From positions 1 to 41,538 of the forward strand of contig CAMBVX010000013.1 in the NCBI GenBank assembly GCA_945871085.1: a DNA stretch of 41,538 bases. Reading direction: 5' to 3'. Each line of letters begins with the position of its first letter. Position 1 is the stretch's first letter. This DNA comes from Opitutus sp. GAS368. Its GTDB lineage: Bacteria; Verrucomicrobiota; Verrucomicrobiia; Opitutales; Opitutaceae. Positions 18,348-41,538 of this stretch are shown here, piece by piece. The translations under genes and the position numbers were made by a program. The notes under the pieces were generated by a model. That model ran no database searches. It had not been told where the DNA came from and was given only the letters and a program-made list of their open reading frames with translations.

Positions 18348-18485
18348 GTCCGTTTGCGCTATCCGGCAGAAACCCGTGCCGTCTGCCCACGGCCATAGCT
18401 CATACCGCCCGCTCGTCGCGCTCTCGTCAGGCTGTGTCGGCGACTCATTTTTCCGATGGCCGCGGTTCCGCCGCGTACGCCCCGC

Positions 18486-19217
18486 TCACCGCACACTCTG
18501 CCGATAGACCAGCGCGGTCACGCCCGTCGCCGCCTTAAACTGCCGCGCAAACGCGCTGTGATCGTAGAAGCCGCAGGCCAGCGCGATCACGGCCACGCGC
18601 GCATCGGTCTCCCGCAGTCGTCGCGTCGCTTCCTGCAACCTCGTCTGGATGATCAACTGGCCCGGCGTGAGATGAAAAATTCGTTTCACGAGTCGGCTGA
18701 ATCGTGCCGCGGACAGTGCGGCTTTCGTCGCGAGCTGAGTCGTGGAAATCGGCTGATCGAAATTTTCCTGCAAGAACTGGATGGCGTCCGCCAGCTCCGG
18801 TGGAATCGCGCCCCGCTCATCAGGCGCGGCGAGATCACGCGAAAGTCCGGCGAGGCCGTGGATGCGTCCGGCGGCAGTGCGCAGTGGAATCTTGCTGGTG
18901 AGACACCAGCCCGGGCTGCCGTCGGTATAAAAATGCAACTCGAGTTTCGCCAAGATCGACCGCCCCGTGGTGAGCACCTGCCGGTCTTGTGCGGCATAAA
19001 CCTCCGCCCACTCCGACGGAAAAAATGCGCCAACCGTTTTGCCCATGACCTCCGCCTTGGCCTTGCACCCGCAGCGGGCGACGAGCGTGTGATTCACTGC
19101 CACATAGCGCCCCGCATCATCCTTCACGAAAAAAACGACATCCGGCACCAAATCGAACAACGCCTCCGCGATACCGGCATCGGCGAGTGCGGCCAAGGGA
19201 TGAACAGCGGAGGGCAT
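18486..19217 (-). CDS. PAS-domain AraC-family transcriptional regulator
   Basis: This 243-residue protein has an N-terminal PAS domain (about 15-115; LFDLVPDVVFFVKDDAGRYV and GWCLTSKIPLRTAAGRIHGL) and a C-terminal AraC double helix-turn-helix (about 135-243). The latter includes QPISTTQLATKAALSAARF, FHLTPGQLIIQTRLQEA and ALACGFYDHSAFARQFKAAT. The PAS domain probably senses a small molecule. I start at ATG 19217, giving MPSAVHPLAALADAG; upstream sequence in the frame is antisense to the peptidase gene. It is divergent from the S9 peptidase gene across 141 bp, so it may control that gene and possibly the hydroxyproline genes beyond. The effector is not known. Confidence 0.83.
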   Translation of the reverse strand: MPSAVHPLAALADAGIAEALFDLVPDVVFFVKDDAGRYVAVNHTLVARCGCKAKAEVMGKTVGAFFPSEWAEVYAAQDRQVLTTGRSILAKLELHFYTDGSPGWCLTSKIPLRTAAGRIHGLAGLSRDLAAPDERGAIPPELADAIQFLQENFDQPISTTQLATKAALSAARFSRLVKRIFHLTPGQLIIQTRLQEATRRLRETDARVAVIALACGFYDHSAFARQFKAATGVTALVYRQSVR

Positions 19218-19358
19218 GGCGCGGAAACTTGGCGGAAACCCACGCCAAAAGCCGCAAGATTGTGCAAGACGCCCATGGTAGTATGCCTCTCGTGCGAGCA
19301 CGCTGCCGTCCTCGTCTCCCTGCTGAACGCGTTCTACCGCCTCCCCCGCCCCGACTCC

Positions 19359-21575: not shown

Positions 21576-21616
21576 AAGATCACTCGGTCTTTCCCTTCGG
21601 CCTCCCCGGCCCGCTC

Positions 21617-21946
21617 TCAGCCCGTTCCGCGAGCTTCTTGGAGTCTGCGCGGCAGATCTCGATGGCCCTGCCTCACTCGCCGAATTTCAACTCCGTCCGC
21701 CGCTACTTCAAAAAACACGACGTGCCGATGGAACGGCTTAAGCACCACGAAGAATCGCCAGACGGAAAGGCGCGGATGTTTGAACCCTGCCTGCGGCCCA
21801 AGGAGTGGATGCGTGCCGATCAGGGCACACGTTGCCTCGATGGCGACGAGGTAGCGATCCGCGACCTGCCAGCCGGCGTTCACGGCCTACCACTCATCTT
21901 GCAGTTCCACATCGGCGATGAAGAGCGCCGTTTTTCGCGTGGTCAC
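21617..21946 (-). pseudogene. ParE/RelE-type toxin with amber codon at position 20
   Basis: A GTG at 21946-21944 overlaps the antitoxin stop (GTGA) and opens MTTRKTALFIADVELQDEW, then a TAG at 21889-21887. The same frame continues unbroken as AVNAGWQVADRYLVAIEATC, HPLLGPQAGFKHPRL, HRHVVFFEVA and GHRDLPRRLQE, the expected body of a ParE-like toxin. Family members usually have Tyr right after the Trp, so TAC or TAT became TAG by one base. A GTG at 21883 could restart and give 88 residues without the first helix. I read it as a silenced toxin; readthrough or sequencing error are alternatives. It is convergent with the peptidase gene. Confidence 0.72.
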
Positions 21947-22218
21947 GACGACTTTCCAGCGAGCCGTGCGCGAACGCGTTCACGAATCCCCGCGAAGTCC
22001 TCGCCGCTCAACGGAGCAGTGGGCGCATCGGCAGACTCGAGCAACCAAGCTTCCAATTCTTCATTCACCTCAAACGATTTTTGGCCCTGTAGACTCCACG
22101 CCCGCAAGGCATCATTGACCAAATCCGCCGCACTCGGACTCGCGCCTGCTCGCACCTGCTCCGCCACGAACGCTTCCACGTCTTCCGCCAGCATGATTTG
22201 TATGAAAAAACCGTGCAT
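21943..22218 (-). CDS. ParD-like antitoxin
   Basis: The protein has 91 residues from ATG 22218, or 83 from the in-frame ATG 22194, which gives MLAEDVEAFVAEQVRAG. It shows the ParD-type ribbon-helix-helix start, then SPSAADLVNDALRAW, and ends with an acidic/basic C-terminal tail (DFAGIRERVRARLAGK) that would wrap around the toxin. It precedes and overlaps the ParE-like toxin gene. Since that toxin has an amber codon, the antitoxin may persist as an orphan regulator. It is divergent from the hydroxyproline operon, whose start is only 51 bp away, so the two units share a promoter region. Confidence 0.72.
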   Translation of the reverse strand: MHGFFIQIMLAEDVEAFVAEQVRAGASPSAADLVNDALRAWSLQGQKSFEVNEELEAWLLESADAPTAPLSGEDFAGIRERVRARLAGKSS

Positions 22219-22269
22219 GGACTCAATTGACGGGTCAATTCTCCATCTCTTCTGCCTTTCACCCCAGCC

Positions 22270-23202
22270 ATGAAATCCATCCGCGTCCTCGATTCCCACA
22301 CCGGCGGCGAGCCTACTCGCCTCGTGCTCGACGGCGGGCCTGAGCTCGGCACCGGCCCGCTCGATGAGCGCGCCGCGCGCTTCCGGCGCGATTTCGACGC
22401 CGACCGTTCCGCGATCGTTAATGAGCCCCGCGGCTCCGACGTCATGGTGGGGGCTCTCCTCGTTCCGCCGGATCGGGCGGACTGCGACTTCGGCGTGATC
22501 TTCTTCAACAACGTCGGCGTGCTGGGCATGTGCGGTCACGGCACCATCGGTCTCGTGGTTTCACTCGCGTATCTCGGCCGTATCCAGCCGGGCCGCATAA
22601 AAATCGACACGCCCGTCGGCGCCGTAAGCGCCGAACTGCACGCCGACGGATCCGTCTCCGTCGAAAACGTTCCAGCTTACCGCCAAGCCCAGGCCGTCCC
22701 CATCAACGTGCCCGGCCACGGCATCGTGCGCGGCGATGTCGCGTGGGGTGGCAACTGGTTCTTCCTCGTAGGTGAACACTCCTTACGCCTCGACCTCACG
22801 TCACTGGAAGCGCTCACCGAATTCACGTGGCGCGTGCGTCAGGCCGTCAACGCGCAGGGTTTCCCCGCGGTCGATCACGTCGAGCTCTTCGCTCCCTCTC
22901 CCTCACCGGGCGCCGACAGCCGCAACTTCGTCCTCTGTCCTGGCAAAGCCTACGACCGCTCGCCCTGCGGCACCGGCACCAGCGCCAAACTCGCCTGTCT
23001 CGCCGCCGAGGGAAAACTCGCCGAGGGCGCACCGTGGATCCAGGAAAGCATCATCGGCAGTCGTTTCACCGGGAGCTACCGTTGGCTCGATCAAGCCAAC
23101 GCTCGCATCGCTCCCACCGTCACCGGCACCGCGCACGTCATCGCGGAGACCACGCTGCTCCTTGATGATCGCGATCCATTTTGTTGGGGCATTCGCGGAT
23201 GA
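22270..23202 (+). CDS. 4-hydroxyproline 2-epimerase (proline racemase family)
   Basis: The 310-residue protein has both catalytic cysteines of the proline racemase/hydroxyproline epimerase family: C88 in [12 protein letters not shown] and C233 in [10 protein letters not shown]. It also has the opening [16 protein letters not shown]. The C-terminal Cys distinguishes it from trans-3-hydroxyproline dehydratases, which have Thr there. It converts trans-4-hydroxy-L-proline to cis-4-hydroxy-D-proline, the first step of bacterial hydroxyproline use, in the cytoplasm. Its stop overlaps the next gene's ATG (23199-23202). The following oxidase and deaminase genes support hydroxyproline rather than proline as substrate. 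Confidence 0.9.
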
Positions 23203-24464
23203 AATCCCGCGACTCCCGCCACATCGTCGTCTGCGGCGCCGGCATCATCGGCCTCAACTGCGCCTACGCCCTACGCCAACGCGGCTACGACGTCACCGTG
23301 GTCGACCGTTCGTCCGAAGACCGTGACGGCTGCTCCTTCGGCAATGCTGGCATGATCGTCCCGAGTCACTTCATTCCCCTCGCCGCGCCCGGCATGACCA
23401 AGCTCGCGCTCAAATGGATGTTCGATGCCAAGAGCCCGTTCTATATCCGGCCGCGCCTCAGCGCCGACCTCATCACGTGGGGCCTGCGCTTCATGCGCGC
23501 CGCCAACGCCGACCACGTCACGCGCTCCGCGCCGCTCATCCGCGATCTCTCGCTCGCGAGCCGCGCGCTCTACGAACAACTCGCCGACGCCACCCAAAAC
23601 GACTTCGGTCTCGTCCGCCGCGGGCTGCTGATGCTGTGCAAAACCCAGCACACGCTCGACGACGAAGCCCTCGTCGCCACCCGTGCCCGCGAGCTCGGCG
23701 TGCCGGCCGAAGTCGTTTCTTCAGCCCGCGCCGCTGAACTCGATCCCGCGGTGCGCATGGCCATCACCGGCGCGATCTACTTTCCGCTCGATTGCCACCT
23801 CTCCCCGCAACGCCTCATGGCGACGCTGCTCCGGCTCACGCGCGCCGCCGGCGTAAAGTTTCACTGGTCCACCGCGATCACCGGCTGGCGCTCCACCGGA
23901 AGCGCCCTCATTGCCGCCGAAACCTCGCGCGGTGATATCCCCGCCGACGAATTTGTCCTCGCCGGCGGCTCGTGGTCGCCCGCCATGGTGCGCGGGCTCG
24001 GCCTCAAGCTCCCGATGCAGCCCGGCAAAGGCTACAGCGTCACACTCACCCGCCCCCGTCAGTTGCCGCAGCTCTGCTCGATTTTCACGGAGGCCCGCGT
24101 CGCCGTCACCCCGCTGGGCGACACGCTGCGCATTGGCGGGACGATGGAGCTCAGTGGCATGGACGAGTCGATCCAACACGAACGCGTCGCCGGTATCACC
24201 GAGTCCGTCCCGCGCTACTTTCCTGAGTTCACCGCCGAAGATTTTCGTGATCGTCCCGTCTGGCACGGTCTACGACCGTGCGCCCCTGATGGTCTGCCCT
24301 ACCTCGGACGCTTCGCGCGCCACACCAACCTCACAGCCGCCACCGGCCACGCGATGATGGGCGTCAGTCTTGCCCCGATCACTGGCCAGCTTATCGCCCA
24401 ACTTTTATCCGGCGAAAAACCCTCCATCGACCTCACCGCACTTTCACCCGATCGTTTCAACTAA
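23199..24464 (+). CDS. FAD-dependent D-amino acid dehydrogenase (D-hydroxyproline dehydrogenase)
   Basis: The 421-residue protein has a DadA-type FAD-binding fold: [18 protein letters not shown] (dinucleotide motif GAGIIG at 13-18), the family segment [14 protein letters not shown], and the C-terminal [15 protein letters not shown] and [11 protein letters not shown] motifs. In hydroxyproline operons this enzyme oxidises cis-4-hydroxy-D-proline to 1-pyrroline-4-hydroxy-2-carboxylate. The start ATG is inside the end of the epimerase gene (ATGA), a sign of translational coupling. It is a single-polypeptide type rather than the multi-subunit dehydrogenase found in some other bacteria. Confidence 0.87.
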
Positions 24465-24476
24465 CCTCTTCCTCCT

Positions 24477-25376
24477 ATGAAAATGACTTGGACCGGCGTC
24501 CTTCCTGCCCTCACCACCAACCTGCGCGCCAACGGTGCGATCGATCACCCGGCGCTCCTCCGCCACTGCCGCTGGATGCTCGACAGCGGTTGCACTGGCC
24601 TCGTGTGCTGCGGCTCGCTCGGCGAAGCCGCCACGCTCAGCTTCGACGAAAAAATTTCCGTCGTCACCACCGCCCTCAAAGCCGCCGCCGGCCGCGCGCC
24701 CGTCGTGCTCGGTATCGCCTCACTCTCGACCGCCGAAGCCGTCGCCCTCGCGAAAGCCGCCGCCAAAGCCGGCGGCTCCGGCCTGATGGTGCTACCACCC
24801 TACACCTACACGACTGACTGGCGCGAAATGAAGGCTCACCTCGCCGCCGTGTTCCGCGCCACGAAACTCTCGTGCATGCTCTACAATAATCCTCCCGCCT
24901 ACAAAACCGACTACCTTCCCGCGCAGATCGCCGAACTCGCCGCTGAGTTCCCCACCCTGCAGGCCGTGAAAGAATCCAGCGGCGATATCCGCCGCGTCAC
25001 CGCCATTCGCGCGCTCCTCGGCGAGCGTCTGACACTGCTCATCGGTATGGACGACGCCATCGTCGAAGGCATCGCCGCCGGTGCGCAGGGCTGGATCGCC
25101 GGCCTCGTCAACGCGTTCCCCCGCGAATCCGTCCTCCTCGTCGAGGCTGCCCGCGCCGGCGATCACGCCAAGGCCCGCGCGATCTACGAGTGGTTCCTCC
25201 CACTCCTGCGCCTCGATACCGTGCCGAAGTTCGTGCAATACATTAAGTGGATCCAGGCCGAGCTGCACTGCGGCACCGCGACCGTCCGTCCACCTCGCCT
25301 CCCACTCGAAGGCGCCGAACTCGCCAACGCCCAGGCGATTCTCGCCCTCGCCCTCAAAACCCGGCCGAAACTCTGA
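24477..25376 (+). CDS. DHDPS-family 1-pyrroline-4-hydroxy-2-carboxylate deaminase
   Basis: The 299-residue protein is a DapA/NAL-family (beta/alpha)8 lyase: GSLGEAATLS (46-55), Y136 in MLYNNPP and the Schiff-base lysine K165 in AVKESSGD. In operons with a hydroxyproline epimerase and D-hydroxyproline oxidase this family member is the Pyr4H2C deaminase, which releases ammonia and yields alpha-ketoglutarate semialdehyde. It is 12 bp after the dehydrogenase gene, the last of the three. The next enzyme, alpha-ketoglutarate semialdehyde dehydrogenase, is not in this window. Sequence alone could also fit another DHDPS-family lyase; context decides the call. Confidence 0.85.
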   Translation: MKMTWTGVLPALTTNLRANGAIDHPALLRHCRWMLDSGCTGLVCCGSLGEAATLSFDEKISVVTTALKAAAGRAPVVLGIASLSTAEAVALAKAAAKAGGSGLMVLPPYTYTTDWREMKAHLAAVFRATKLSCMLYNNPPAYKTDYLPAQIAELAAEFPTLQAVKESSGDIRRVTAIRALLGERLTLLIGMDDAIVEGIAAGAQGWIAGLVNAFPRESVLLVEAARAGDHAKARAIYEWFLPLLRLDTVPKFVQYIKWIQAELHCGTATVRPPRLPLEGAELANAQAILALALKTRPKL

Positions 25377-25851
25377 CCAATGAACCCAGCTTGATTTGTC
25401 ATTGCGCAGGAGCCTAAGCGACTGCGGCAATCCACGAGGCACGGCCGGATGGATTGCTCCAGTCGGCAAGCCTCCAGCGAATGCACACAAAGGGTTTGTC
25501 ATTGCGAGCCCGGCTCGGCGGGCGTGGCAATCCAGCGGAAATTCCAGATGGATCGCCACGTCGCTTCGCTCCTCGCGACGACAAACGGGGTTCATTGCCC
25601 CTTCCACCCAACGGCTCGGCGGTGGTTCCAGCTCTCGCAATGAGAAGCCGTGGAAAGTTCCTGGCTCCGTTCACCCACGGCTCGGCGTTGTTGGAGCTCT
25701 CGCCATGACAAACCGGGTTCCTTGCACTCCTCCCCCAAGGTGTCGCGCCTTGGTTCCGCCCTCGCCATGACAACCACCGTGAGAAAGTCCGCCACGGTGT
25801 TTCGCTTTCACGGCAGAGTGTGAAATAACCGGCTGTGCTCCCATTCCGCTC
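25377..25851. repeat. Dispersed GTCATTGCGAG-type repeat region (MITE-like)
   Basis: No gene is seen. At 25494-25586 there is an element with near-perfect 15-base terminal inverted repeats, GTTTGTCATTGCGAG and CTCGCGACGACAAAC. Inside is a second inverted pair (GTGGCAATCC at 25524-25533 and GGATCGCCAC at 25550-25559). Related pieces lie on both sides: TTGTCATTGCGCAGGAGCC near 25396, TCTCGCAATGAGAAGCCG near 25633, CTCGCCATGACAAACCGGG near 25700 and CTCGCCATGACAACC near 25762. It looks like nested or tandem copies of a palindromic repeat common in intergenic DNA of diverse bacteria. Confidence 0.75.
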
Positions 25852-27198
25852 ATGATCACGCCGCCCCTCCTCGCCACCGCCGCCGCTACCGACGCGGGTA
25901 TCCCCCTGTGGTTGGTCGTGCCCTTCGCGCTGCTCCTGCTGCTCATCGCGGTGATGCCCCTCACGCCCCCGGGCGTGAAACACTTCTGGGAAAAATACTA
26001 CGCCCACCTGTCCGTCGGCCTCGGCTTGGCCATGATCGCTTTCTACCTGACGAATATTCCCGACGGCCGCGGGGTCGTCACCCACACGGTGCACGAGTAT
26101 TTTTCGTTCATCTGCCTCATCGGTTCGCTCTTCGTCGTCGCCGGCGGTATCCACATTAAAGTTCGCGACGAAGCCACGCCGCTCGCGAATCTCACGTTCC
26201 TCGCGATCGGTGCCGTCATCGCCAACGCCATCGGCACGACCGGTGCCTCCATGGTCCTCATCCGCCCGTGGATTCGCATGAACAAAATCCGCATCAGTGC
26301 CTTCCATATCGTTTTTTTCATCTTCATCGTCTCCAACGTCGGCGGCGCGCTCACCCCGATCGGCGACCCGCCCCTCTTTCTCGGCTATCTGCGGGGCGTG
26401 CCGTTTTTCTGGCTCATCGACCACGTGATCGGCCCGTGGCTTTTCACCCTCGCTCTGCTCCTCGCCGCTTTCTACGTCTTCGACCGTCGCAGCTATCTGC
26501 GCACGCCCGCAAAAATCCGCGCCGCCCTCGACCGCCCGTCCGCAGGCCTCCTGATCGAGGGCAAGATCAACCTCGTCTTCCTCGCCGCCCTCATCGGCGC
26601 CGTGTTTCTCCCTGAACGTTTTTTTCTGCGCGAACTCGTCATGCTGGCCGCCGCCGCCGCGTCCTACTTCCTGACGCCGCCCAAACTCCACGCCGAAAAC
26701 CACTTCAACTTTGGCCCGATCAAAGAAGTCGCGTTCCTCTTCGCCGGCATCTTCGCCACGATGATGCCCGCCCTCGGCTACATTGACCAACACGGCGAGT
26801 CGTTTGGCGTGAAAAAACCGCTCCACTACTATCTCGCCTCCGGCAGCCTCTCGGCCGTCCTCGACAACGCCCCCACCTACGCGACCTTTCTCCGCCTCGC
26901 CCAAGCCACCGCCCAGAGCGAACACCCCGCCGACTTCGCCCCGGCCGCCGGCAACGAAATCGCCATCGTCCGCACCCTGCTGACCAAGCCCGACTACGCG
27001 CAACTCGTCGTCGCCGTGAGCCTCGGCGCGGTCTTCTTTGGCGCGATGACTTACATCGGCAACGGCCCCAACTTCATGGTGAAATCCATCGCCGACCGCG
27101 CCGGCGTCCGCACCCCGACCTTCTTCGGCTACGTTTTTAACTACAGCCTCCCGATCCTCTTTCCGATCCTCGCCTTCGGCGGCTGGCTGTTCCTGTAG
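25852..27198 (+). CDS. NhaD-type sodium:proton antiporter (ion transporter superfamily)
   Basis: The protein has 448 residues and about 12 hydrophobic segments, starting with PLWLVVPFALLLLLIAVMPL. Conserved family patches are ANAIGTTGASMVLIRPWIRM, SNVGGALTPIGDPPLFLGYL and the C-terminal GAMTYIGNGPNFMVKSIADR. NhaD-like proteins of the IT superfamily exchange Na+ or Li+ for protons at the inner membrane. It stands alone on the plus strand, 475 bp after the hydroxyproline genes and convergent with the S4 gene. A dicarboxylate role is possible within the superfamily, but the GDPPLF and NGPN motifs favour the antiporter. Confidence 0.83.
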   Translation: MITPPLLATAAATDAGIPLWLVVPFALLLLLIAVMPLTPPGVKHFWEKYYAHLSVGLGLAMIAFYLTNIPDGRGVVTHTVHEYFSFICLIGSLFVVAGGIHIKVRDEATPLANLTFLAIGAVIANAIGTTGASMVLIRPWIRMNKIRISAFHIVFFIFIVSNVGGALTPIGDPPLFLGYLRGVPFFWLIDHVIGPWLFTLALLLAAFYVFDRRSYLRTPAKIRAALDRPSAGLLIEGKINLVFLAALIGAVFLPERFFLRELVMLAAAAASYFLTPPKLHAENHFNFGPIKEVAFLFAGIFATMMPALGYIDQHGESFGVKKPLHYYLASGSLSAVLDNAPTYATFLRLAQATAQSEHPADFAPAAGNEIAIVRTLLTKPDYAQLVVAVSLGAVFFGAMTYIGNGPNFMVKSIADRAGVRTPTFFGYVFNYSLPILFPILAFGGWLFL

Positions 27199-31866: not shown

Positions 31867-32574
31867 ATGAAAACAGCGCCCGAAACCAGTTCCCTTCCCC
31901 AGGACCGCGTAGTCACCCCGGCCGGGAACTTGAACATTTGGATTTTTGACGATCACCAGTGCTTTCGGGATCTGCTTTCTGATCACCTTTCCACGCTGCC
32001 CCAGACCTGGGTCGTCGGGTGCGGCGACGACCGGGCCAAACTGTTCGCGGCGGTCGACCGCCACGACGTCAACTTGGTGTTGCTCGACCTGCATCTCCCC
32101 GATACCGGAGGATTCGGCATCATGGAGACGATGATGCTCAGGGCGAGCCCTCCGGCTGTGGTCATCTTGAGCAGTGAGGTTACGCTCCACTCGGTCAACA
32201 CCGCCATTCGTCTCGGCGCGGTCGGCTACCTTCAGAAGACGGCCGGACTCGACGAGATCGAAACCGCGCTCGGGCAAATTCGGCTGGGCGCCACCTATTT
32301 CGGCCAAGGAATCGCGCGAGAGATTGGCGCCGAAGTAAAGCGCAGGCTTGAGCGGCGCGGAAACTCGGACCTCACCACCCGCGAAGTTCGCCTGCTGTCC
32401 CGTCTGGCCCGTGGCGACAATGCCAAGGAACTGGGCGCGGCGATGAACATCTCCCCCTTTACCGTCTACAAAATGCGCACCGTGCTGATGGAAAAGATTG
32501 GGGTGAAAACCCAGCGCGAGCTGGTGGACTATGCTCTGCGCAACGGACTCATGGGCTGGCACCAGAGCGTCTAA
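31867..32574 (+). CDS. LuxR/NarL-type response regulator
   Basis: The 235-residue protein has a receiver domain (about 22-145) with acidic pocket D28-D29, phospho-acceptor D74 in LVLLDLHLPDTGGFG, and the K in GYLQKTAG. A C-terminal GerE/LuxR helix-turn-helix follows (LTTREVRLLSRLARGDNAKE, then NISPFTVYKMRTVLMEKIGV). It should bind DNA as a phosphorylated dimer. It is the first gene of the plus-strand signalling island, 52 bp before a PAS histidine kinase that may be its cognate partner. Receiver motifs are intact. Confidence 0.87.
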   Translation: MKTAPETSSLPQDRVVTPAGNLNIWIFDDHQCFRDLLSDHLSTLPQTWVVGCGDDRAKLFAAVDRHDVNLVLLDLHLPDTGGFGIMETMMLRASPPAVVILSSEVTLHSVNTAIRLGAVGYLQKTAGLDEIETALGQIRLGATYFGQGIAREIGAEVKRRLERRGNSDLTTREVRLLSRLARGDNAKELGAAMNISPFTVYKMRTVLMEKIGVKTQRELVDYALRNGLMGWHQSV

Positions 32575-32626
32575 ACGGCGCCCAGCCCGCACCCGTCCAA
32601 TCGTGACCCACCGCCTCCCGCTGACA

Positions 32627-33679
32627 ATGAGAACTCCACCCGCACCCTTTCCCGGCGACATGGTCCCCGCACCGTTTTTGATTGTCGGAGCCGACGGGCG
32701 GGTCGTGGACAGCAACCCCTTGGCGCGGACCGCTCTCTCCCTCGTGGGCCCGCTCCTTCCGGGCTCCAGTTGGCACGATTTGCTGGGCGTGGAAGAAACC
32801 CGACGGTTCGAAGGCTTGGTTCAAACCCTCACTCCCGGAGACACCGCCACGGCCCATTTTCGCTTCGGCACGGGGAAACAAACGGTCTCCTTTCGGCTCA
32901 ATGTGCTCCGCCTGGCCCGGGGGGCCTCCGTCACCCTGTACCCCGGCTTGACATCCTCGCTCAAAACACCGCTGTTTTTCGGGCAGGTTGACGCGCCGCT
33001 GCCGGCGGCGTTTCTCCCTACCCTCACCCACGGTCTGAAGTCGCACTTGGCGGCGGCCCGCACGGCCACTTTTCTGCTCACGAAACAATACAAGCCCCCC
33101 GCCTTGTCCAAAGAGCACCGGTGGCTGGCTGCGATCGGCGAATCCGTCGTCCAGTCGACCGCTTTACTCGATCAAGTCGAACTCCTGGACGCGACCGTGC
33201 TCAAAGAGGTGGTCCGACCTCCGGAGCCGACCGATGTTTCGGAGTGGTTGGGCCGGATGACCGAGCGGGCGAATCAAGCCCACCCCGGGACCACGGTCTC
33301 ACTGACCGGTCGCAGCGCGGTGAGCGGCCGTTGGTGGTTGTGCACCGGCCTCATGGACACGGCGGTCGGATGCCTCCTCTCCAACGCCCTGAAATTCGCC
33401 CCGGCCGGAAGCCAGTCCTGCCTGAGTGCGACTGAGCTGGAGGATGGCCTGGAGATCGTGGTCTCCAACGAAGGTGCCGGCCTGCCCGATGACGAAGTCG
33501 CCCAGCTGTTCACCCCTTTCTTCCGCGGCACCAATGCCCGCCAGACTCCCGGCCTCGGTCTCGGTCTGGCCATCGCCCGTGCCGCCGTTCTCCGCCTCTA
33601 CGGCACGATCTCCTACCGGGTTGCCCCGGGACCCCGGGTTGAATTCTCCCTCCGATTCCCGGCCAAAGCCGAACGCTAG
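32627..33679 (+). CDS. PAS-domain sensor histidine kinase
   Basis: The 350-residue protein has an N-terminal PAS domain (about 12-110; PAPFLIVGADGRVVDSNPLA). A helical segment with a possible phospho-acceptor H135 (THGLKSHL, resembling the H-box) follows. The C-terminal HATPase domain has the N box LLSNALKFAP, G1 NEGAGLPDDE, F box FTPFFRG and G2 TPGLGLGLAIARAAV. There is no membrane segment, so it senses a cytoplasmic signal. The H-box lacks the usual E/D and P and is diverged. Likely partner of the preceding LuxR-type regulator; the start at ATG 32627 gives the shortest sensible lead. Confidence 0.82.
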   Translation: MRTPPAPFPGDMVPAPFLIVGADGRVVDSNPLARTALSLVGPLLPGSSWHDLLGVEETRRFEGLVQTLTPGDTATAHFRFGTGKQTVSFRLNVLRLARGASVTLYPGLTSSLKTPLFFGQVDAPLPAAFLPTLTHGLKSHLAAARTATFLLTKQYKPPALSKEHRWLAAIGESVVQSTALLDQVELLDATVLKEVVRPPEPTDVSEWLGRMTERANQAHPGTTVSLTGRSAVSGRWWLCTGLMDTAVGCLLSNALKFAPAGSQSCLSATELEDGLEIVVSNEGAGLPDDEVAQLFTPFFRGTNARQTPGLGLGLAIARAAVLRLYGTISYRVAPGPRVEFSLRFPAKAER

Positions 33680-33694
33680 TCTCCTGTTTTCACG

Positions 33695-34768
33695 ATGAAT
33701 CCTCCTCCAGGCCACCGCATTCTCCTCGCCGAGGATGACCCCATCTTGCGCCAAATGACCACCGACTTGCTCGAGCTCAACGGCTACCAAGTTACCATGG
33801 CTTCCGGGGGTGCGCGGGCGATCGAATCCTTCAACCTCGCCTGCCCCGACCTCGTCCTGGCGGACATTGCCATGGCGGAAGGCGACGGCTATTCGCTGCT
33901 CAAACACATCCGCACTCACCAGACCGCCGCTGACGTGCCGGTCATCTTCATGTCCGGAAAATCCGGCCTCGCGGACATCCGCGCAGGACTGCGGGTCGGA
34001 GTCGACGACTACATTCCCAAACCGTTTGACCCCGACGAACTGCTCCGATCGATCACCCTCCGCATCAGTCGTCGGGAGCAAAAACACCGCCTCGACGCAT
34101 TGTTGGGCCGATCGCTCCATCACGACTTCCGCACGCCGCTCACCAGCATACTCGGTTTTGCCGCGTTGTTGAGCGCGGCCGCCGCGATGGGAAAGCCGAT
34201 GCCCGCGGCCGAAGTCGCGGAAGCGGCGGAGATGATGCAACACTCGGCGGAGCAGCTCTTGGAGCTGATCGAACGGGTCGGCACCATCGTGGAGATCGCC
34301 AGCTCGAGTCCCAAGCTGGCCGAAACCTACCGCACCGTCACGACCGCCGATTGGCTGGCCGGCACCCGCCGAAACTGCGAGGCCGTCGCGCAAAAAATGG
34401 ATCGGGCCCCGGATCTCGTCCTCGACCTCAACGATGTGCCGGTGCCGGTGCCGCTGGCTCATTGGCAGCTGACCTTGGCCCAGTTGGTCGAAACCGCCTT
34501 TGACGCCTCGCCCAAGGGGTTCCCGGTTCGGGTCACCGGTCGCTTGGAAGGCCACGCGTATCACGTCTCCGTGGACTGTGCGGCCGGCTCCCCGCCGCCG
34601 GCCGACGGCGCCGCGGTCGACCCCAAGGCTTCGTCTCTCCACTTTCCGGGACCGGGGATGGACATTGTGCGCCGCGTGGCAGCCCTCTCTTCCTCCGAGC
34701 TCAAAGTCTTGCCCACCGCCCGCGGGACGGCGATCCACTTGATTGTTCCGGTGGGACCGCGGAAATAG
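33695..34768 (+). CDS. Receiver-histidine kinase with degenerate ATPase domain
   Basis: The 357-residue protein has an N-terminal receiver (about 6-125) with D14-D15, phospho-acceptor D57 in LVLADIAMAEGDGYS and K109 (YIPKPFDPDE). A clear H-box follows, LHHDFRTPLTSILGFAALL (H143). The last 140 residues sit where HATPase_c should be but lack its motifs: the N-box position reads VETAFDASPKG without the Mg-binding Asn, no DxGxG G1 box is present, and only FPGPGMDIVRRVAALSS recalls G2. It may pass phosphate between partners instead of making its own. It follows the PAS kinase by 15 bp. Confidence 0.8.
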   Translation: MNPPPGHRILLAEDDPILRQMTTDLLELNGYQVTMASGGARAIESFNLACPDLVLADIAMAEGDGYSLLKHIRTHQTAADVPVIFMSGKSGLADIRAGLRVGVDDYIPKPFDPDELLRSITLRISRREQKHRLDALLGRSLHHDFRTPLTSILGFAALLSAAAAMGKPMPAAEVAEAAEMMQHSAEQLLELIERVGTIVEIASSSPKLAETYRTVTTADWLAGTRRNCEAVAQKMDRAPDLVLDLNDVPVPVPLAHWQLTLAQLVETAFDASPKGFPVRVTGRLEGHAYHVSVDCAAGSPPPADGAAVDPKASSLHFPGPGMDIVRRVAALSSSELKVLPTARGTAIHLIVPVGPRK

Positions 34769-34867
34769 TCCCGCCGGCCTCTCGGCGTTTTTTACCCCAT
34801 CGCCGCCGCTGCCCTACGAACCCATCCTGCCCGATCCCGCAGATCAAAAACCGCCGCAGGCACCACG

Positions 34868-37195
34868 ATGATTGCTCCGTCGCCCACCGAGGTCGAACGC
34901 CTTGCCCAGCTCCAACGCTACGAAATTCTGGATACGGGCCAGGAAGACGTGTTCGACGACTTCACCATTCTGGCCGCGCAGATTTGCGGCACGCCCATTT
35001 CGCTCATCTCCCTCCTCGATGCCGAACGGCAATGGTTCAAGAGCAAGGTTGGCCTGACCGAAACCCACACCCCGCGGGAGCTGGCTTTCTGCGACCACGC
35101 CATCCGCACACCCGAGGTGATGGAAGTCCCCGATGCCACCCTTGATCCCCGGTTTTTCGCGAACCCTCTGGTGACGGGCGCCCCGGACATCCGGTTTTAC
35201 GCCGGGTCGCCCCTCGTTGCCCCGGATGGCAGCCGCATCGGCACGCTGTGCGTGATCGACCGCGTCCCGCGCCGCCTGTCCGACGCACAGCGCGCCGCCT
35301 TGGCGCGGCTCGGGCGCCAGATCATCGTCCAACTGGAGCTGCGGCTGGCGCGGCGGGATCTCGAGGCCCGCATCGCCGGGGCCGAGCGGGCGGAGGCGCT
35401 CATGCGAGACACGCTGGCGCGCGCGACCGCCGCCGAACGCCGTACCGTCCGCGCGAACGACCTGCTCTCCGCGGTCCGCGAATTGCTCACCGGCCACCTC
35501 GTGCAAAACGGCCGCAAGGCCACCTTCGCCCGGCTGCTCCAGCTCCTGCTCGAATATACCGACAGCAACTACGGATTTGTCGCCGAGGTGCTGCACGATC
35601 CGGCCGGGCAGCCCTACCTCAAGACCCAGGCGATCACCAACATCGCCTGGAACGACGAGATGCGCGCCTTTTTCGACCAACATCACGCGCAGGGCCTCGA
35701 GTTCCGCAATCTGCAGACCCTCTTCGGCGCCGCCCTCACCACCGGCCAAACGGTGATTTCCAACTCGCCCGCCACCGATCCCCGCCGGGGCGGCCTGCCC
35801 CCGGGTCACCCTCCGATGAATGCCTTCCTCGGCGTGCCCATCCGGCACGGCGGTAAGATGATCGGCATGGTCGGCGTCGCGAACCGGCCGGACGGATACG
35901 ACCCGGCCATCGTCGAGCTGCTCGAACCGCTGTTCTCCGCCTACGCCACCATCATTCATGACGTGCGCATGGCCGACCTGCGCGAGGAAACCCAGCTGAA
36001 GATCGGCCGGCTGAACCAGGAACTGCAGGACCGCGCCGACCGCCTCGACCAGGCCAACCAGGCCCTCGCCGAACGCGACCAACTCCGCCAGCTCTCCCTC
36101 GAAAACGCCTCCGTCCGCCTGCAGCACCTCGCCGCCATGGACGCGGCCAGCGACGGCCTCGCGCTGCTCGACGCGGCGGGCCTCTACACCTACGTCAACA
36201 CCGCCCATGCCACCATGTTTGGCTTCGCCTCTGGCGCGGAATTACTGGGCCAGAACTGGCGCATCCTCTACGACGCCGACGAACTCACCCGGATCCAGAC
36301 CGAAGTCTTCCCCGAGCTGGGCGCCCGCCGCCACTGGCACGGCCGAGCCCGGGCCCGCCGCCTTGACGGCACGCACTTTCCGGAGGCGCTCACGCTCACG
36401 CTCACGCCGGACGGCGGGATCATCTGCGTCTGCCGGGACGACACCAGCGCCGTGGAATCGGAGCAAAAGATCCAGGCCCTCTCCTGCGGATTGGAAACCC
36501 GCGCGCAGGAACTGATGAAGGTCAACCGCGAGCTTTCCGACTTCGCCCACGTCGTTTCCCACGACCTGAAGGCCCCCCTGCGCGGCATCGGCTCGCTCTC
36601 CAACTGGCTGCAGCAGGACTATGCGGCCAAGCTCGGGCCGGAAGGCGCCGAGCAGCTCCAGCTGATCGGCGGCCGCGTGGCCCGCCTCAGCGGCCTGATC
36701 GACGGCATCCTCAGCTACTCCCGCGCGGGCCGCACCCCCCGCAGCCAGACCGTCGTCTCGCTGGACGTGCTGGTGCAGGGCACCCTCGAGATACTCGCGC
36801 CGCCCGCCCACATTGCCGTCACCGTGGCGACTGCGCTGCCCCAGATCAGGATGGACCCCACCAAGGCGCAGCAGCTCTTCCAAAACCTGCTGTCCAATGC
36901 GGTCAAATACATGAACAAACCCTCCGGCCGGGTCACCGTCAGCTGCGTCGCCGCCGACCGCTTCTGGCATTTCTCCATCGCGGACAACGGCCCGGGCATC
37001 GAGGAAAAATACTTCGAACGCATCTTCCAGCTGTTCCAAACCCTCGCGCCGCGCGACGAGGTCGAGTCGACCGGCGTCGGCCTGGCCGTCGTCAAAAAGA
37101 TCGTCGAAACCGAGGGCGGCCGGATCTGGATCGAGTCCGTCTTCGGCCACGGCGCCACCTTCCATTTCACCCTCCCGTGCGACGAACCCGCCTGA
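34868..37195 (+). CDS. GAF-GAF-PAS sensor histidine kinase
   Basis: The 775-residue protein begins with a GAF domain (about 10-165; RYEILDTGQEDVFDDF, CDHAIRTPEV, FYAGSPLVAPDGSRIGTLCV). A second GAF-like domain (about 215-375) has NAFLGVPIRHGGKMIGMVG. A coiled linker precedes a PAS domain (about 415-530; LALLDAAGLYTYVNTAHATM). The transmitter has H565 in AHVVSHDLKAPLRGI, N box LLSNAVKYMN, G1 DNGPGIEEKYF and G2 GVGLAVVKKIVE. The layout resembles phytochrome-like kinases without a visible chromophore cysteine assignment. It is soluble. The Rcp1-like receiver 21 bp downstream is the obvious partner. Confidence 0.88.
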   Translation: MIAPSPTEVERLAQLQRYEILDTGQEDVFDDFTILAAQICGTPISLISLLDAERQWFKSKVGLTETHTPRELAFCDHAIRTPEVMEVPDATLDPRFFANPLVTGAPDIRFYAGSPLVAPDGSRIGTLCVIDRVPRRLSDAQRAALARLGRQIIVQLELRLARRDLEARIAGAERAEALMRDTLARATAAERRTVRANDLLSAVRELLTGHLVQNGRKATFARLLQLLLEYTDSNYGFVAEVLHDPAGQPYLKTQAITNIAWNDEMRAFFDQHHAQGLEFRNLQTLFGAALTTGQTVISNSPATDPRRGGLPPGHPPMNAFLGVPIRHGGKMIGMVGVANRPDGYDPAIVELLEPLFSAYATIIHDVRMADLREETQLKIGRLNQELQDRADRLDQANQALAERDQLRQLSLENASVRLQHLAAMDAASDGLALLDAAGLYTYVNTAHATMFGFASGAELLGQNWRILYDADELTRIQTEVFPELGARRHWHGRARARRLDGTHFPEALTLTLTPDGGIICVCRDDTSAVESEQKIQALSCGLETRAQELMKVNRELSDFAHVVSHDLKAPLRGIGSLSNWLQQDYAAKLGPEGAEQLQLIGGRVARLSGLIDGILSYSRAGRTPRSQTVVSLDVLVQGTLEILAPPAHIAVTVATALPQIRMDPTKAQQLFQNLLSNAVKYMNKPSGRVTVSCVAADRFWHFSIADNGPGIEEKYFERIFQLFQTLAPRDEVESTGVGLAVVKKIVETEGGRIWIESVFGHGATFHFTLPCDEPA

Positions 37196-37216
37196 GGCCG
37201 CCGCCCGCTCCCCCCC

Positions 37217-37633
37217 TTGAACGCCCATCACTCCATCCTCCTCATCGAAGACGACCGCATCGACGCCATGACCGTCACGCGGGCCCTGCGCGACCTGGGC
37301 TCGACGAATCCGCTCCATCACGTGACCGACGGTGAAAAGGCGCTGTCCTTCCTCGTGGATCCGGCCAGCCCGCGCCCGATGCTCATCTTGCTCGACCTGA
37401 ACATGCCCCGGATGAACGGGGCCGAATTCCTCGCTGTCATCAAGGCCGACGACCTGTTCCGGGCGATTCCTATCGTCGTCCTCACCACCTCGCAGGAGGA
37501 TCGCGACCGGTTGCGCGCCTTCGACCTCAGTGCCGCCGGCTATATCGTCAAACCCGTCGACTACACCCAGTTCGTCAACGTGATGCGCACCGTCCTGGAT
37601 TATTGGACCACGAGTCAAACGCCGCCCATCTGA
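37217..37633 (+). CDS. Rcp1-like single-domain response regulator
   Basis: The 138-residue protein, from a TTG at 37217, is a stand-alone receiver: ILLIEDDRIDAMTVTRAL (acidic pocket 11-13), phospho-acceptor D60 in ILLDLNMPRMNGAEFL, T-box VVLTTSQED and K in YIVKPVDYTQF. There is no output domain. The extended loop before the phospho-site (DGEKALSFLVDPASPRP) is typical of response regulators paired with phytochrome-type kinases (Rcp1 group). It sits between two large kinases and overlaps the next gene by one base (TGATG at 37631-37635), so it probably shuttles phosphate between them. Confidence 0.86.
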   Translation: MNAHHSILLIEDDRIDAMTVTRALRDLGSTNPLHHVTDGEKALSFLVDPASPRPMLILLDLNMPRMNGAEFLAVIKADDLFRAIPIVVLTTSQEDRDRLRAFDLSAAGYIVKPVDYTQFVNVMRTVLDYWTTSQTPPI

Positions 37634-40600
37634 TGCCTACCACCTCTCCCAAAATCCGCCTGCTGCTCATTGAGGACGACGCCATCGATCGCCAGGAATT
37701 CACGCGTTTCGTGCGCGAGCGGGACCTCCCCTACGAGGTCACGGTGGCACTGAATCTCAGCGAAGCCCGCCGGCACTTGGCCGCGACGACCTTCGACATC
37801 GTCGTCGCCGATCATCAACTCCCCGACGGCACGGCGTTCGATTTGTTCAACACCCGCGAAAGCTGGGTCGATCAAATTGTGATTTTGGCCACGGGGGCGG
37901 GCGACGAGGATACGGCCGCCCGCGCCTTGCGGGCCGGAATGCGGGACTACTTGATCAAGGACCAGCAGCGCACCTATCTCCGCCGCCTGCCCCAGCAGAT
38001 CGACAGCGCGCTCACGGAGCGCCGACTCCTTCGCCAAGTCCGGGAAAGCGAGGCCCGCCTGCGGGATCTGTTCGACGGAACCACCGACCTCATCCAAAGC
38101 GTGGCGCCCGACGGCCAGCTCCTGTTCGTGAACCGGGCTTGGCGCGAGACGCTCGGCTATACGCTCCAAGACGTCGGGGGCCTAAACTTCTTCGCAGTGA
38201 TCGATCATTCCAGCCTGGCCCATTGCCAGACCATCTTTGGACAGCTGCTGGCGGGACAAGACGTCGGCCCGTTGCAGTTGAAGCTGCGGACCAAAGAGGG
38301 CCGCGCCGTCTCGCTGGAGGGCCGGGTGACGGTCCGACGCGAAGACGGCAAGGTGATCTCCAGCCGGGGGATCTTTCACAACATCACGGACCTCGCCCTC
38401 GCGGAGTCCGCCGCGCGCCTCGCGAACCAGCGGCTGTCGGACCTCCTCTCGGTGAGCAGCGCGGTGATCTTCACCTGTGCCGCCGAACCGCCCTTCGCCG
38501 CCACCTTTGTCAGCCCCAGCTCCAAGCTGGTTTGGGGCTATGAGCCTGCGCAGTTTGGTCAGCCGGGTTTCTGGGCTGACCAGATCCATGCCCATGACCG
38601 GGCCCGCGTGCTGGAAGGTCTGACCCAGACGGCGGTCTTGGGCAGCTGCACCCAGCGCTATCGCTTTCGCCGCAGCGATGGCGTGTGGCGCTGGGCGCAG
38701 GATGACGTGCGCCTGGGTGCGGTCGAGGGCTCCACCGCGAAGCAACTCGTCGGCGTCAGACGGGACATCACCGACGAGGTGACCAAGGACGCGACGATCC
38801 GCTCGTTCCAAGACCGGACGCTGCGCTTTCAAGCGGTGCTGCTGGTGTTGCATAATCGCGAATCCGCCGCCTTCGAGGACCTCATCCGTTCCGCCATTGA
38901 ACTGGCGACCACCGCCCTGGACGTCTCGTCAGCGAGTCTGTGGTTTGGGGACCCGCAGCGCGATCAGATGGCGCTGCTCACCGGCTGTCGCATCGACGGA
39001 CCTTCCCATCAGCCAGGTACCCAGCTGCCGGTGCAGCGCTTCCCGCAATTCTGGGAGGCCCTTTGCGCCGGGCCCGTTCTGCAGATCGACGACGTCATCG
39101 TTCATCCCTGCACCGCCGGCATCGCGGGTTCACCCCTCGCGCCGGACTCGACCCAGGCCCTGGCGGGTGCGCGGCTCCAATTCGACGGCCGGCCAATCGG
39201 CGGTCTCGTGTTCACGCGCACGGCCGCGCATCCCGCCTGGGCGGTGGACGAGGTGAAATTCGTGCAATCGATCGCGAACACCATCATGCTCGCGTTCGAA
39301 CAGGACAAACGCCGCGGGGCCGAGGCCGCCGAGCGGGAAATGCGGTCGCATTTGGAAGAATTGGTCGATTCGCGCACCGCGGCGCTCCAGGAATCCGAAG
39401 GACGGTTCCGCCAACTCGCGGAAAACATCCAGGAAATCTTCTACATCGTCGACGTGCCCAGCGGCAATTTCGTCTACGTGTCCCCCGCCTTTACCGTGCT
39501 GTTCGGCCGGACCGCGGAGGCACTCCTGCAGACGCGCCAAACGTGGTTTGACGCGGTCCATCCCGAGGATCGGGAGCGCGTCCAGGAATCCATTGCCCAT
39601 CGCTCGTCGGGGGCGACGGGCGTCGAATACCGCATCGTCCATGTCGATGGCCATACCCACTGGGTCCGGGATCGCTCGTTTGCCGTCAAAGATGGCCAGG
39701 GCCGCGTTTACCGCCACACCGGACTGGCCGAAGACATCACGGAACGGAAAAACTCCGAACAGGCCATTCTGCGCCGCCAACGGATGGAAAGCCTCGGCAC
39801 ACTGGCCAGCGGCGTCGCCCACGATCTGAACAATGCCCTCGCGCCCATCTCCCTCGGCGCTCATCTCCTGCGCAAAAAATATCCCAAGGAGGATCGCATC
39901 ATTTCCGGCATGCAGGCCAGTGCCCAGCACGGCGCCAACATGGTCCGGCAACTCCTCACGTTTGCGAAAGGGATCGACGGCGAGCGGACCGCCCTCAGCA
40001 CGCTGCACCTGTTCAGCAATCTCGCGACGCTGATCGAGTCGACCTTCCATCGGAACGTCACCCTGAGGGTGACCTGCCCGCCGGATATCCCCCCCGTCTT
40101 TGGCGACGAAACGCAATTGCACCAAGTGCTCCTGAATCTCTGCGTCAACGCCCGGGATGCCATGCCCGACGGCGGGACCCTCGAACTGGATGCCTTCACC
40201 CGGCACGTCGACCAAACCTATGCCAGCACCATCCCCGAGGCTAGACTGGGCGAATATGTGGTTTGGCAGGTGGCGGATTCGGGCGAGGGCATTCCGCCCG
40301 CCGTCTTGGAACGGATCTTCGATCCCTTCTTCACCACCAAAAGCCCGGACAAAGGCACCGGCCTCGGGCTTTCCACCGTCGCCGGCATTGTCCGCAGTCA
40401 CGGCGGGTTTGTGCGGGTGGCGTCCTCTCCCGGTCAGCGGACGATCTTCTCCGTGTTTTTGCCGAGCGCCCTGGAGCGGAGCCGTGCCACACCCGTCCGC
40501 GCCGTGGATCCGACCGCCCCGCTCGACGGCGAGGGCCGCACGATTTTGGTCGTCGACGACGACCAGTCCGTCCGGGAAGTCTCGGCCGCCGTGTTGCATG

Positions 40601-40908
40601 AGCTGAACTTTAACGTGATCACGGCCAACGACGGCACCGATGCCTTGATCCGCGTCGTGGAAAACCGGGCGGTGCTGCGCGGCGTGGTCACCGATCTCAA
40701 CATGCCACACATGGACGGGCTCAAACTGGTGCGGACGCTCAAGCACATGCTGCCGGGCATTCCCGTGGTGGTCTCCAGCGGCCGGGTCGACGAAAAACAA
40801 GCGCATGAACTGGCCGTTCTGGGCGTGGTCGCGGTGCTCCATAAGCCCTTCGACGAGGTCACGTTCGCCGCCGCGATTCGCCAGCTCATGGGCCCACCCC
40901 CGCCATAA
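37633..40908 (+). CDS. Hybrid sensor kinase REC-PAS-PAS-GAF-PAS-HisKA-HATPase-REC
   Basis: The protein has 1091 residues. An N-terminal receiver ([17 protein letters not shown]60 in [11 protein letters not shown]) is followed by PAS domains at about 140-260 ([20 protein letters not shown]) and about 275-395, a GAF domain at about 410-555, and a third PAS at about 590-715 ([20 protein letters not shown]). The transmitter has H730 in [15 protein letters not shown] box [14 protein letters not shown]1 [12 protein letters not shown] and G2 [15 protein letters not shown]-terminal receiver has D1021 in [12 protein letters not shown]. Two receivers flank the kinase, which suits both input from and output to a phosphorelay. 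There are no membrane segments. Its ATG overlaps the TGA of the Rcp1-like gene. Confidence 0.88.
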
Positions 40909-41019
40909 GCAGCGCTCCTCCGCTGTTCCGGCTCGCGCCCGCCGCTGCGGCGGGGCCACGCGGTGTGCACCCTCTCGCTGTCTACCCCCTGTTCCAATCA
41001 CCCCTCTACGCTCCATCAC
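40909..41019. other. Short spacer between hybrid kinase and membrane protein gene
   Basis: This 111-bp GC-rich spacer (CGCCCGCCGCTGCGGCGGGGC at about 40938 forms a small GCCGC/GCGGC hairpin) has no T run, and no promoter could be assigned. Confidence 0.35.
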
Positions 41020-41538
41020 TTGAAATCACTCGTCTTTGCGCAGTCCGACTATCTGGGGTTTTTACTGCTCGGTCTCACGCTCTTCGCCGCCGTCGAGGTG
41101 ACGCTGCGGCGCCGCCGTGGCGGTACACTCCCTTGGTCCGTCTGGGCGGCCGTCGGCCTCCTGCTCGGCCTCGCCTGGTGGCCCGCCAAGCTCGCCCGTG
41201 ACCGGGCCCACCATGAAGTTTCCCAGCAAATGGGCGATATCGCCCCCGTCTTCGCCGACATCTTTGAGCAATTGGGGCACAGTCGCATCACCTTGGAGAC
41301 GCCCGCCGACGACCCGCTCTATCTCCGGTTGATCGAAACCCAGATCCGGCTCCTCCGCGTAACGCCGACGGTGAATGACGTCTACACCATGCGCCGGCAG
41401 CCCGACGGCAAGGTCGTGATCGTCGTCGACTCCGAGACCGACTACGATCGCAATGGGCGGATCGACCAGGAGCGCGAGAAGCGCACCCCGATCGGCTTCG
41501 TCTACGACCACGTCGATAGCGGCTTGCAGCTCGCCCTG
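41020..41538 (+). CDS. Membrane-anchored sensor-like protein, 5' part only
   Basis: The frame opens with a TTG at 41020-41022 and is still open at the window edge after 173 codons. It has two hydrophobic segments (YLGFLLLGLTLFAAVEV and WSVWAAVGLLLGLAWW). A probably periplasmic region follows: HEVSQQMGDIAPVFADIFEQ, then VNDVYTMRRQPDGKVVIVVD, then SETDYDRNGRIDQEREKRTP. That pattern is familiar from extracytoplasmic input domains of sensor kinases, cyclases or HD-type proteins in environmental bacteria. The output domain lies beyond the window. It probably belongs to the same signalling island. Confidence 0.6.
   Translation, partial: MKSLVFAQSDYLGFLLLGLTLFAAVEVTLRRRRGGTLPWSVWAAVGLLLGLAWWPAKLARDRAHHEVSQQMGDIAPVFADIFEQLGHSRITLETPADDPLYLRLIETQIRLLRVTPTVNDVYTMRRQPDGKVVIVVDSETDYDRNGRIDQEREKRTPIGFVYDHVDSGLQLAL

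Follow-up and report, generated by a model that had tools for sequence, protein, structure and literature searches.

The window analysed here, 41,538 nucleotides in length, is the entire contig CAMBVX010000013.1 (C13) of its genome (G000), so that the window edge is the contig end. The source is an uncultured Opitutae bacterium from fresh water, and the window contains most of a ten-gene signalling island: six complete + strand signalling genes, all with two-component domains, and the start of a seventh occupy positions 31867–41538. The end of contig C345 of the same genome matches the end of the window over 149 identical bases (49 identical residues) and the seventh gene runs on there, and the full island, p1 to p10, covers about 17.1 kb over both contigs. 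p1-p2-p3, the first three genes of the island, are a diverged version of a cassette found repeatedly in the family. The two kinases of this copy have eroded in different parts, and p3, which keeps a receiver and an acceptor histidine and has lost its ATPase, may act as a receiver-gated phosphotransferase and/or phosphatase. The features of the island are as follows.

p1, 31867–32574, + strand: receiver (REC) plus LuxR/GerE helix-turn-helix (HTH), 235 amino acids (Pfam Response_reg 2.1e-15, 57.3 bits, cut-off 30.2; GerE 2.5e-9, 37.1 bits, cut-off 23.5).
p2, 32627–33679, + strand: cytoplasmic kinase with a weak PAS match, a DHp and an HATPase part, 350 amino acids (HATPase_c 5.3e-18).
p3, 33695–34768, + strand: REC-DHp-pseudo-CA protein, 357 amino acids (Response_reg 7e-26, HisKA 1e-9).
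Terminator-like stem-loop with T6, 34772–34787, + strand: 4 bases 3' of p3; may divide two transcription units.
p4, 34868–37195, + strand: GAF-GAF-PAS-HisKA-HATPase_c kinase, 775 amino acids, no membrane segment (Pfam).
p5, 37217–37633, + strand: single-domain receiver, 138 amino acids, TTG start (Pfam).
p6, 37633–40908, + strand: hybrid REC-PAS-GAF-PAS-HisKA-HATPase_c-REC kinase, 1091 amino acids, no membrane segment (Pfam).
p7, N-terminal part, about 40963–41538, + strand: membrane hybrid kinase, cut at the contig end.
p7, remainder, C345 of G000 (locus L023), to 4992, minus strand: PAS repeats, HisKA, HATPase_c and REC.
p8, L023 4003–4995: NMT1-type binding protein, 330 residues, signal-peptide-like start, 4-base overlap with p7.
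p9, C345 of G000: second membrane hybrid kinase, HAMP and PAS repeats, starting five bases after p8.
p10, C345 of G000, after p9: single receiver, the last gene of the island.

p1 passes both Pfam cut-offs as a LuxR/NarL-type response regulator, its HTH is 91–93% identical across three orthologues, and its GerE HTH was the sole DNA-binding domain found among the island genes. The earlier note on this stretch, made from the sequence alone, had described six consecutive signalling genes with five receivers and four transmitter modules. Pfam bore out the six genes, in a run that is even longer with p7 onward on C345, and the five receivers (p1, p3, p5 and two in p6). Three of the transmitters carry an ATPase (p2, p4 and p6), while the fourth, p3, is half a transmitter, with HisKA and no recognisable ATPase. 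The 1-base overlap between receiver and hybrid was also found (TGATG, in which one base belongs to both the p5 stop and the p6 start), and the membrane segment was indeed limited to the incomplete last gene: 19-residue hydropathy means had no membrane-helix-type peak in p1–p6 (maximum 1.77 in p4, 1.26–1.66 in the others) versus peaks of 1.96 in the N-terminal part of p7 and 2.2 in its continuation. The picture of a cytoplasmic network ending at a single LuxR output was not supported, since the full ten-gene island includes two membrane hybrid kinases and p8 with its signal-peptide-like start, the LuxR gene comes first, and p5 and p10 are further single receivers.

Matches to p3 of at least 77% identity occurred in 4/252 family genomes (the window's own, G006, G007 and G125), one of them a 163-residue part. 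The p2 and p3 orthologues were searched against Pfam with a limit of E 10, at which HMMER filters discard most matches above 0.1. For p3, HisKA was listed (1e-9), but HATPase_c was not listed in two of the three complete orthologues and reached 14.8 bits in the third (cut-off 26.4). A genome-wide HATPase_c search (94 places) listed p2, p4 and p6, and not p3. The alignment showed p3 to have lost the N-box Asn, the G1 and F boxes and some of the G2 box, and the partial p3 translation from G125 had lost the ATP-binding boxes likewise. The receiver Asp57 and the acceptor His143 (HHDFRTPL; HDFRTPL) were invariant in all three complete orthologues. p3 has the acceptor-His H-box of a HisKA kinase and lacks the N/G1/F/G2 boxes of HATPase_c, and this pairing of an acceptor His with a dead ATPase is that of Spo0B, ChpT and PhyT. 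The ratio of nonsynonymous to synonymous change (pN/pS) was 0.17–0.25 in the REC, 0.21–0.54 in the DHp and 0.51–0.68 in the CA part. For comparison we used 75 REC-kinase proteins from loci fetched for their likeness to p3, a set that is not random and from which L024–L026 and L047 (duplicating L057/L058) were excluded; L120, L131 and L140 are truncated or shifted and L108 is without a start, and these four were omitted from a 71-row tree. Among the untruncated members of this set, the N-box Asn was missing in the three island p3 alone.

Erosion in p2 affected the other half. HATPase_c scored 65–67 bits in the three orthologues and HisKA was listed in none, so p2 does not have both domains recognised. 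His135, in the motif THGLKSH in the window, is kept in all three and is followed by Gly or Ala and not by an acidic residue; excerpts of PMC7005713 give that acidic residue as the general base in autophosphorylation. In the window genome the G1-box Asp is replaced by Asn, and the two other orthologues have Asp. The ATPase part (pN/pS 0.45–0.62) was no better constrained than the DHp part (0.39–0.68). Five of the 75 REC-kinases (L124, L130, L132, L134 and L141) have an AHNLNNLL H-box, in which the His is not followed by an acidic residue, together with ATPase boxes that look intact, and a loss like that in p2 is therefore not unique.

The family cassette consists of a receiver-LuxR gene, a kinase gene and a receiver-kinase gene. 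In the 71-protein tree, the clade that holds p3 has ten members (support 0.989), and nine of them come third in a cassette. We found 43 p3-like matches (at E 1e-34 or better, with 8 candidates scored per genome) in 33/252 family genomes; 33 of the 43 were examined, and 23 of these lie in a cassette, one with a broken third gene. Catalytic residues were tabulated for 25 cassettes, including G107:C50a and G007:C876 from outside the 43 matches and G125:C122, which has no called LuxR gene; a stop splits the third gene of G066, which was omitted, and G155 was counted despite a 628-base gap from LuxR gene to kinase. The island shares the order, strand and domain make-up of the family cassette, but HisKA is unrecognised in its gene 2 and the ATPase is lost from its gene 3. 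It also has gaps of 15–53 bases instead of the 4-base overlaps that join genes 1 and 2 in 14/24 cassettes and genes 2 and 3 in 10/25. By its recurrence across the family, p1-p3 is an old, real unit. A hybrid kinase lies directly downstream in 4/20 non-island cassettes (G023, G194, G070 and G071), and the link between cassette and hybrid recurs without being usual.

Two further arrangements were observed in the family. G107:C50 (L157 1157–11131) is a second dense island of nine signalling genes with two cassettes in a row, made up of a divergent hybrid kinase, a LuxR regulator, a cassette, a single receiver and the second cassette. Tandem receiver-kinase pairs with AHDLKNPL-type and SHELLTPL-type H-boxes (L048, L049, L051, L090, L094, L095, L099 and L101), mostly behind a further kinase gene, are a second recurring arrangement.

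Gene 2 retained its His and N-box Asn in 25/25 cassettes, while the N-box Asn of gene 3 is gone from four (the three island copies and G107:C50b). The three island cassettes, G125:C79 and G107:C50b form one lineage, with support of 1.0 in the gene-2 tree and 0.98 in the gene-3 tree. In G107:C50b, gene 2 HisKA scored 17.3 bits and gene 3 HATPase_c 22.8 bits. The corresponding values were 11.7 and 43 bits in G125:C79, the closest sister cassette (p3 about 48–51% identical), whose gene 2 has lost the acidic residue; in the island, no HisKA was listed for gene 2 and gene 3 HATPase_c reached at most 14.8 bits. Both domains were above cut-off in both genes of five of the six other Pfam-scored cassettes, and the sixth, G002:C146, had HisKA below cut-off in both. 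Gene 2 of G194 is also without the acidic residue, and its gene 3 looks intact. By these scores, HisKA loss in gene 2 and ATPase loss in gene 3 tend to co-occur, but G125:C79, whose gene 3 has no His and keeps an ATPase score, is at odds with a clean sharing-out of functions. We had considered p3 unique in combining an acceptor His with a dead ATPase, and this firm proof of a phosphotransferase; our confidence fell because G107:C50b is similarly part-eroded and G125:C79 has Tyr.

We tentatively favour p3 as a receiver-gated phosphotransferase and/or phosphatase, like Spo0B, ChpT and PhyT in function, that would act on p1. With a receiver and an acceptor His and no ATPase, p3 should not autophosphorylate. 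The phosphate donor would be p2 and/or the hybrid kinases, through their C-terminal receivers, and the p3 His would pass the phosphate to the p1 receiver or aid its removal there. p1 would then act on DNA, and the state of p3's own receiver would set the direction. Domain make-up, loss of the ATPase boxes, the kept His and Asp, conserved gene order and recurrence of the cassette are read from the sequences themselves; we infer each phosphotransfer step, its direction and the action of p4–p10 through p3. Hybrid kinases often require a His carrier, and none of the seven Hpt (PF01627) matches in the genome lies on C13 or C345. Because p3 has a His without an ATPase behind a receiver, and the island has three hybrids and no Hpt, we read p3 as a putative carrier or phosphatase between the hybrids and the LuxR regulator. 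In excerpts of PMC5898713, PhyT is a degenerate kinase carrying phosphate from a single receiver to an output regulator, and Spo0B and ChpT are cited as earlier examples; these proteins share the HisKA-type acceptor and dead ATPase of p3, but p3 has its own N-terminal receiver. The Pfam families of Spo0B and ChpT (such as PF10090 HPTransfase) were not listed for any of the three p3 C-terminal halves, so p3 is not a member by descent and is likened to PhyT in function only.

Several observations weigh against this assignment. The hybrids are tied to p3 by neighbourhood alone, and 16/20 non-island cassettes have no same-strand hybrid directly downstream. The gene-3 His is lost in three of the 25 cassettes (Tyr in G125:C79, Arg in G125:C122 and in G002:C146) and is absent in 4/75 REC-kinases. 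The Tyr makes a phosphotransferase role impossible in G125:C79, and these losses of the His favour a non-catalytic regulatory role. With just three complete orthologues to compare, the conserved His box counts as weak evidence. The AlphaFold model of p3, with the three orthologues as alignment, had a mean predicted local distance difference test score (pLDDT) of 45.6, which leaves the C-terminal fold unconfirmed.

The relatives that carry the island are uncultured Opitutae metagenome-assembled genomes (MAGs), namely CAJAYO01 (Loc090116-9m bin-1378), CANHJG01 (RE-23may17-750) and CANJIU01 (RH-23may17-1042), whose names suggest a freshwater origin. Matches to p4 (E <1e-150) were present in 3/252 family genomes, and G007 adds two further pieces of p4. 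G006 retains the order p1–p7, p9, p10 without p8, pieces of all ten genes were recovered in order from three contigs of G007, and G125 has the C-terminal half of p3 through p10, with p8 aligned over residues 197–330 alone. G000 and G007 have p8, a possible co-receptor for p7 or p9, in full, G125 has a shortened form and G006 has none (L023 4003–4995 versus L024 12163–12381). Window-like DNA ends about 170 bases 5' of p1 in G006 and G007, which gives the island a sharp 5' edge there. Identity to the window in G125 versus G006 was 88% versus 70% for the p3 C-terminus, 93% versus 90% for p4, 88% versus 83% for p5 (83–88% in the three relatives), 83% versus 85% for p6 (83–85% across almost the whole protein in G006, G007 and G125), 83% versus 72% for p7 and 76% versus 65% for p9. 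G125 belongs to genus g7 and the window genome and G006 to genus g1, yet the p3 C-terminus, p4, p5, p7 and p9 of G125 are closer to the window; either the island moves across genera or the G125 MAG, which is 10.3 Mb and 8% contaminated, is mixed. At L059 1–440 (CANJIU01 contig 176, minus strand), where the contig starts, p3 has no N-terminal half, and the open reading frame there presumably resembles the start of a TrwC-type relaxase. This arrangement may be a mobile insertion, a recombination or an assembly artefact.

It is possible, though open to some doubt, that the island is three independent two-component modules lying side by side (p1–p3, p4–p5 and p6–p10). The cassette type occurs elsewhere without p4–p10, p4 and p5 resemble a self-sufficient kinase-receiver pair, and a 99-base gap with the terminator-like stem separates p3 from p4. 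The stem is weak evidence of separate units: a similar inverted repeat was seen by eye in G125 and G007 and none in G006, RNAfold on short stretches formed it in the window sequence alone, and a terminator scan of the region found 5 stem-plus-T sites versus 7.7 in shuffles. A promoter scan of the region found zero, and such a scan is uninformative for this phylum. Both the free-standing cassettes and, weakly, the stem count against a single indivisible network. However, p3 and p4 occur in the same 4/252 genomes, in fixed order, across about 7–35% protein divergence. The earlier note had set scattered orthologues beforehand as the outcome that would tell against its network; gene order was instead kept in G006, G007 and G125, and a single phosphorelay network across the island is plausible.

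A non-catalytic role for p3 is unlikely on balance. As a receiver-bearing, DivL-like pseudokinase, p3 would bind p2 and tune it allosterically, and p2 alone would phosphorylate p1. Replacement of the gene-3 His in three of the 25 cassettes, including the Tyr of the sister cassette, is what this reading would expect, set against the unbroken retention of His and N-box Asn in gene 2. Searched against PDB sequences, the p3 C-terminal profile gave weak HisKA matches plus antibody noise; DivL (4q20, E 0.0015) came third among the weak matches, behind two kinases, and RetS was listed too. The full HDFRTPL motif in 3/3 complete island p3 orthologues argues the other way, as does the p3 DHp being somewhat more constrained than the CA.

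We consider it quite unlikely that p2 and p3 are a split kinase, with the p2 ATPase phosphorylating the p3 His, which in turn phosphorylates p1. Split kinases exist according to excerpts of PMC3591291, and CheA3/CheA4 of Rhodobacter sphaeroides is one in which the ATPase and acceptor functions are on two proteins, as may possibly be the case for p2 and p3. Complementary erosion within one five-cassette lineage, with both domains above cut-off in both genes of five of the six other scored cassettes, and the missing general-base residue after the p2 His are consistent with such a split. However, the island pair is of HisKA and not CheA type, p2 keeps its His in all three orthologues, its ATPase part shows no tighter constraint than the DHp part, and the p2 of the window has Asn for the G1 Asp. 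In G125:C79, gene 3 has no His yet reaches 43 bits for HATPase_c, and gene 2 has no acidic residue, so that no split is workable there. The acidic residue is also missing from G194 gene 2, beside an intact-looking gene 3, and from the five other REC-kinases, and in G002:C146 neither gene reaches the HisKA cut-off.

A combined arrangement is decidedly improbable, in which p2 and p3 are a reciprocally specialised, obligate receiver-gated kinase also charged by three CckA-like hybrids, merging cytoplasmic and periplasmic inputs on the LuxR regulator. The best NCBIfam match of p6, p7 and p9 is CckA at 280–284 bits versus a cut-off of 1000, and that of p10 is CpdR at 66.9 bits versus 180, so neither equivalog cut-off is reached; the CckA likeness may be one that other hybrids of the family share. 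The island also differs from the CckA-ChpT-CtrA/CpdR system in having a LuxR-type output and not CtrA, and three hybrids and not one. That p3 is decaying and functionless is very improbable, since its CA evolves fast but the frame is open in 3/3 complete orthologues and the REC is strongly constrained at the pN/pS given above; a fourth copy (G125:C176), at a contig end, is without the N-terminal half.

Elsewhere in the island, p4 and p5 are arranged like Cph1-Rcp1 pairs, with a GAF/PAS kinase followed by a single-domain receiver, but no PHY domain was among the p4 Pfam matches; we take p5 to be Rcp1-like by position and architecture. Searches of the literature, which covered few subscription journals, on Verrucomicrobia two-component systems, degenerate receiver kinases and signalling clusters found no description or published name of the cassette, and those on CckA/ChpT/CpdR in Verrucomicrobia and on LuxR plus kinase in Opitutae, with the same coverage, found none. 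Outside the island, window positions 18456–27195 carry, on one strand, a dipeptidyl/prolyl peptidase, an unscanned open reading frame, a proline racemase family protein, an FAD-dependent oxidase (DAO), a DHDPS family protein and a CitMHS-type transporter, which we take to be a hydroxyproline or proline-peptide catabolic cluster.

HATPase_c and REC matches numbered 13 in the 17.1-kb island versus 0.5 expected (94 + 124 matches in 7.37 Mb), although this uniform-genome null is too lenient because two-component genes are generally clustered in bacteria. Judged by eye from the match lists, the island is the genome's densest such cluster. Excerpts of PMC4558063 report a tendency of two-component genes toward operon clustering and runs of histidine kinases (HK) and response regulators (RR) such as HK-RR-HK2-RR2 far above chance in 10–60% of species in most phyla, and the island is less surprising in that light.

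Islands of this kind are common and this one is large; its interesting part is the eroded cassette, in which one kinase has lost its ATP-using half and probably now just passes on or removes phosphate. The addition to the field is modest, as dense two-component islands and dead kinases acting as carriers are both already known. The cassettes of the family form a graded natural series, in which both kinases are intact, one is eroded, or both are eroded in different parts. This series lets one test how a two-kinase unit loses or divides its catalytic functions, and also whether fusing a receiver to a kinase can give rise to a phosphorelay carrier.

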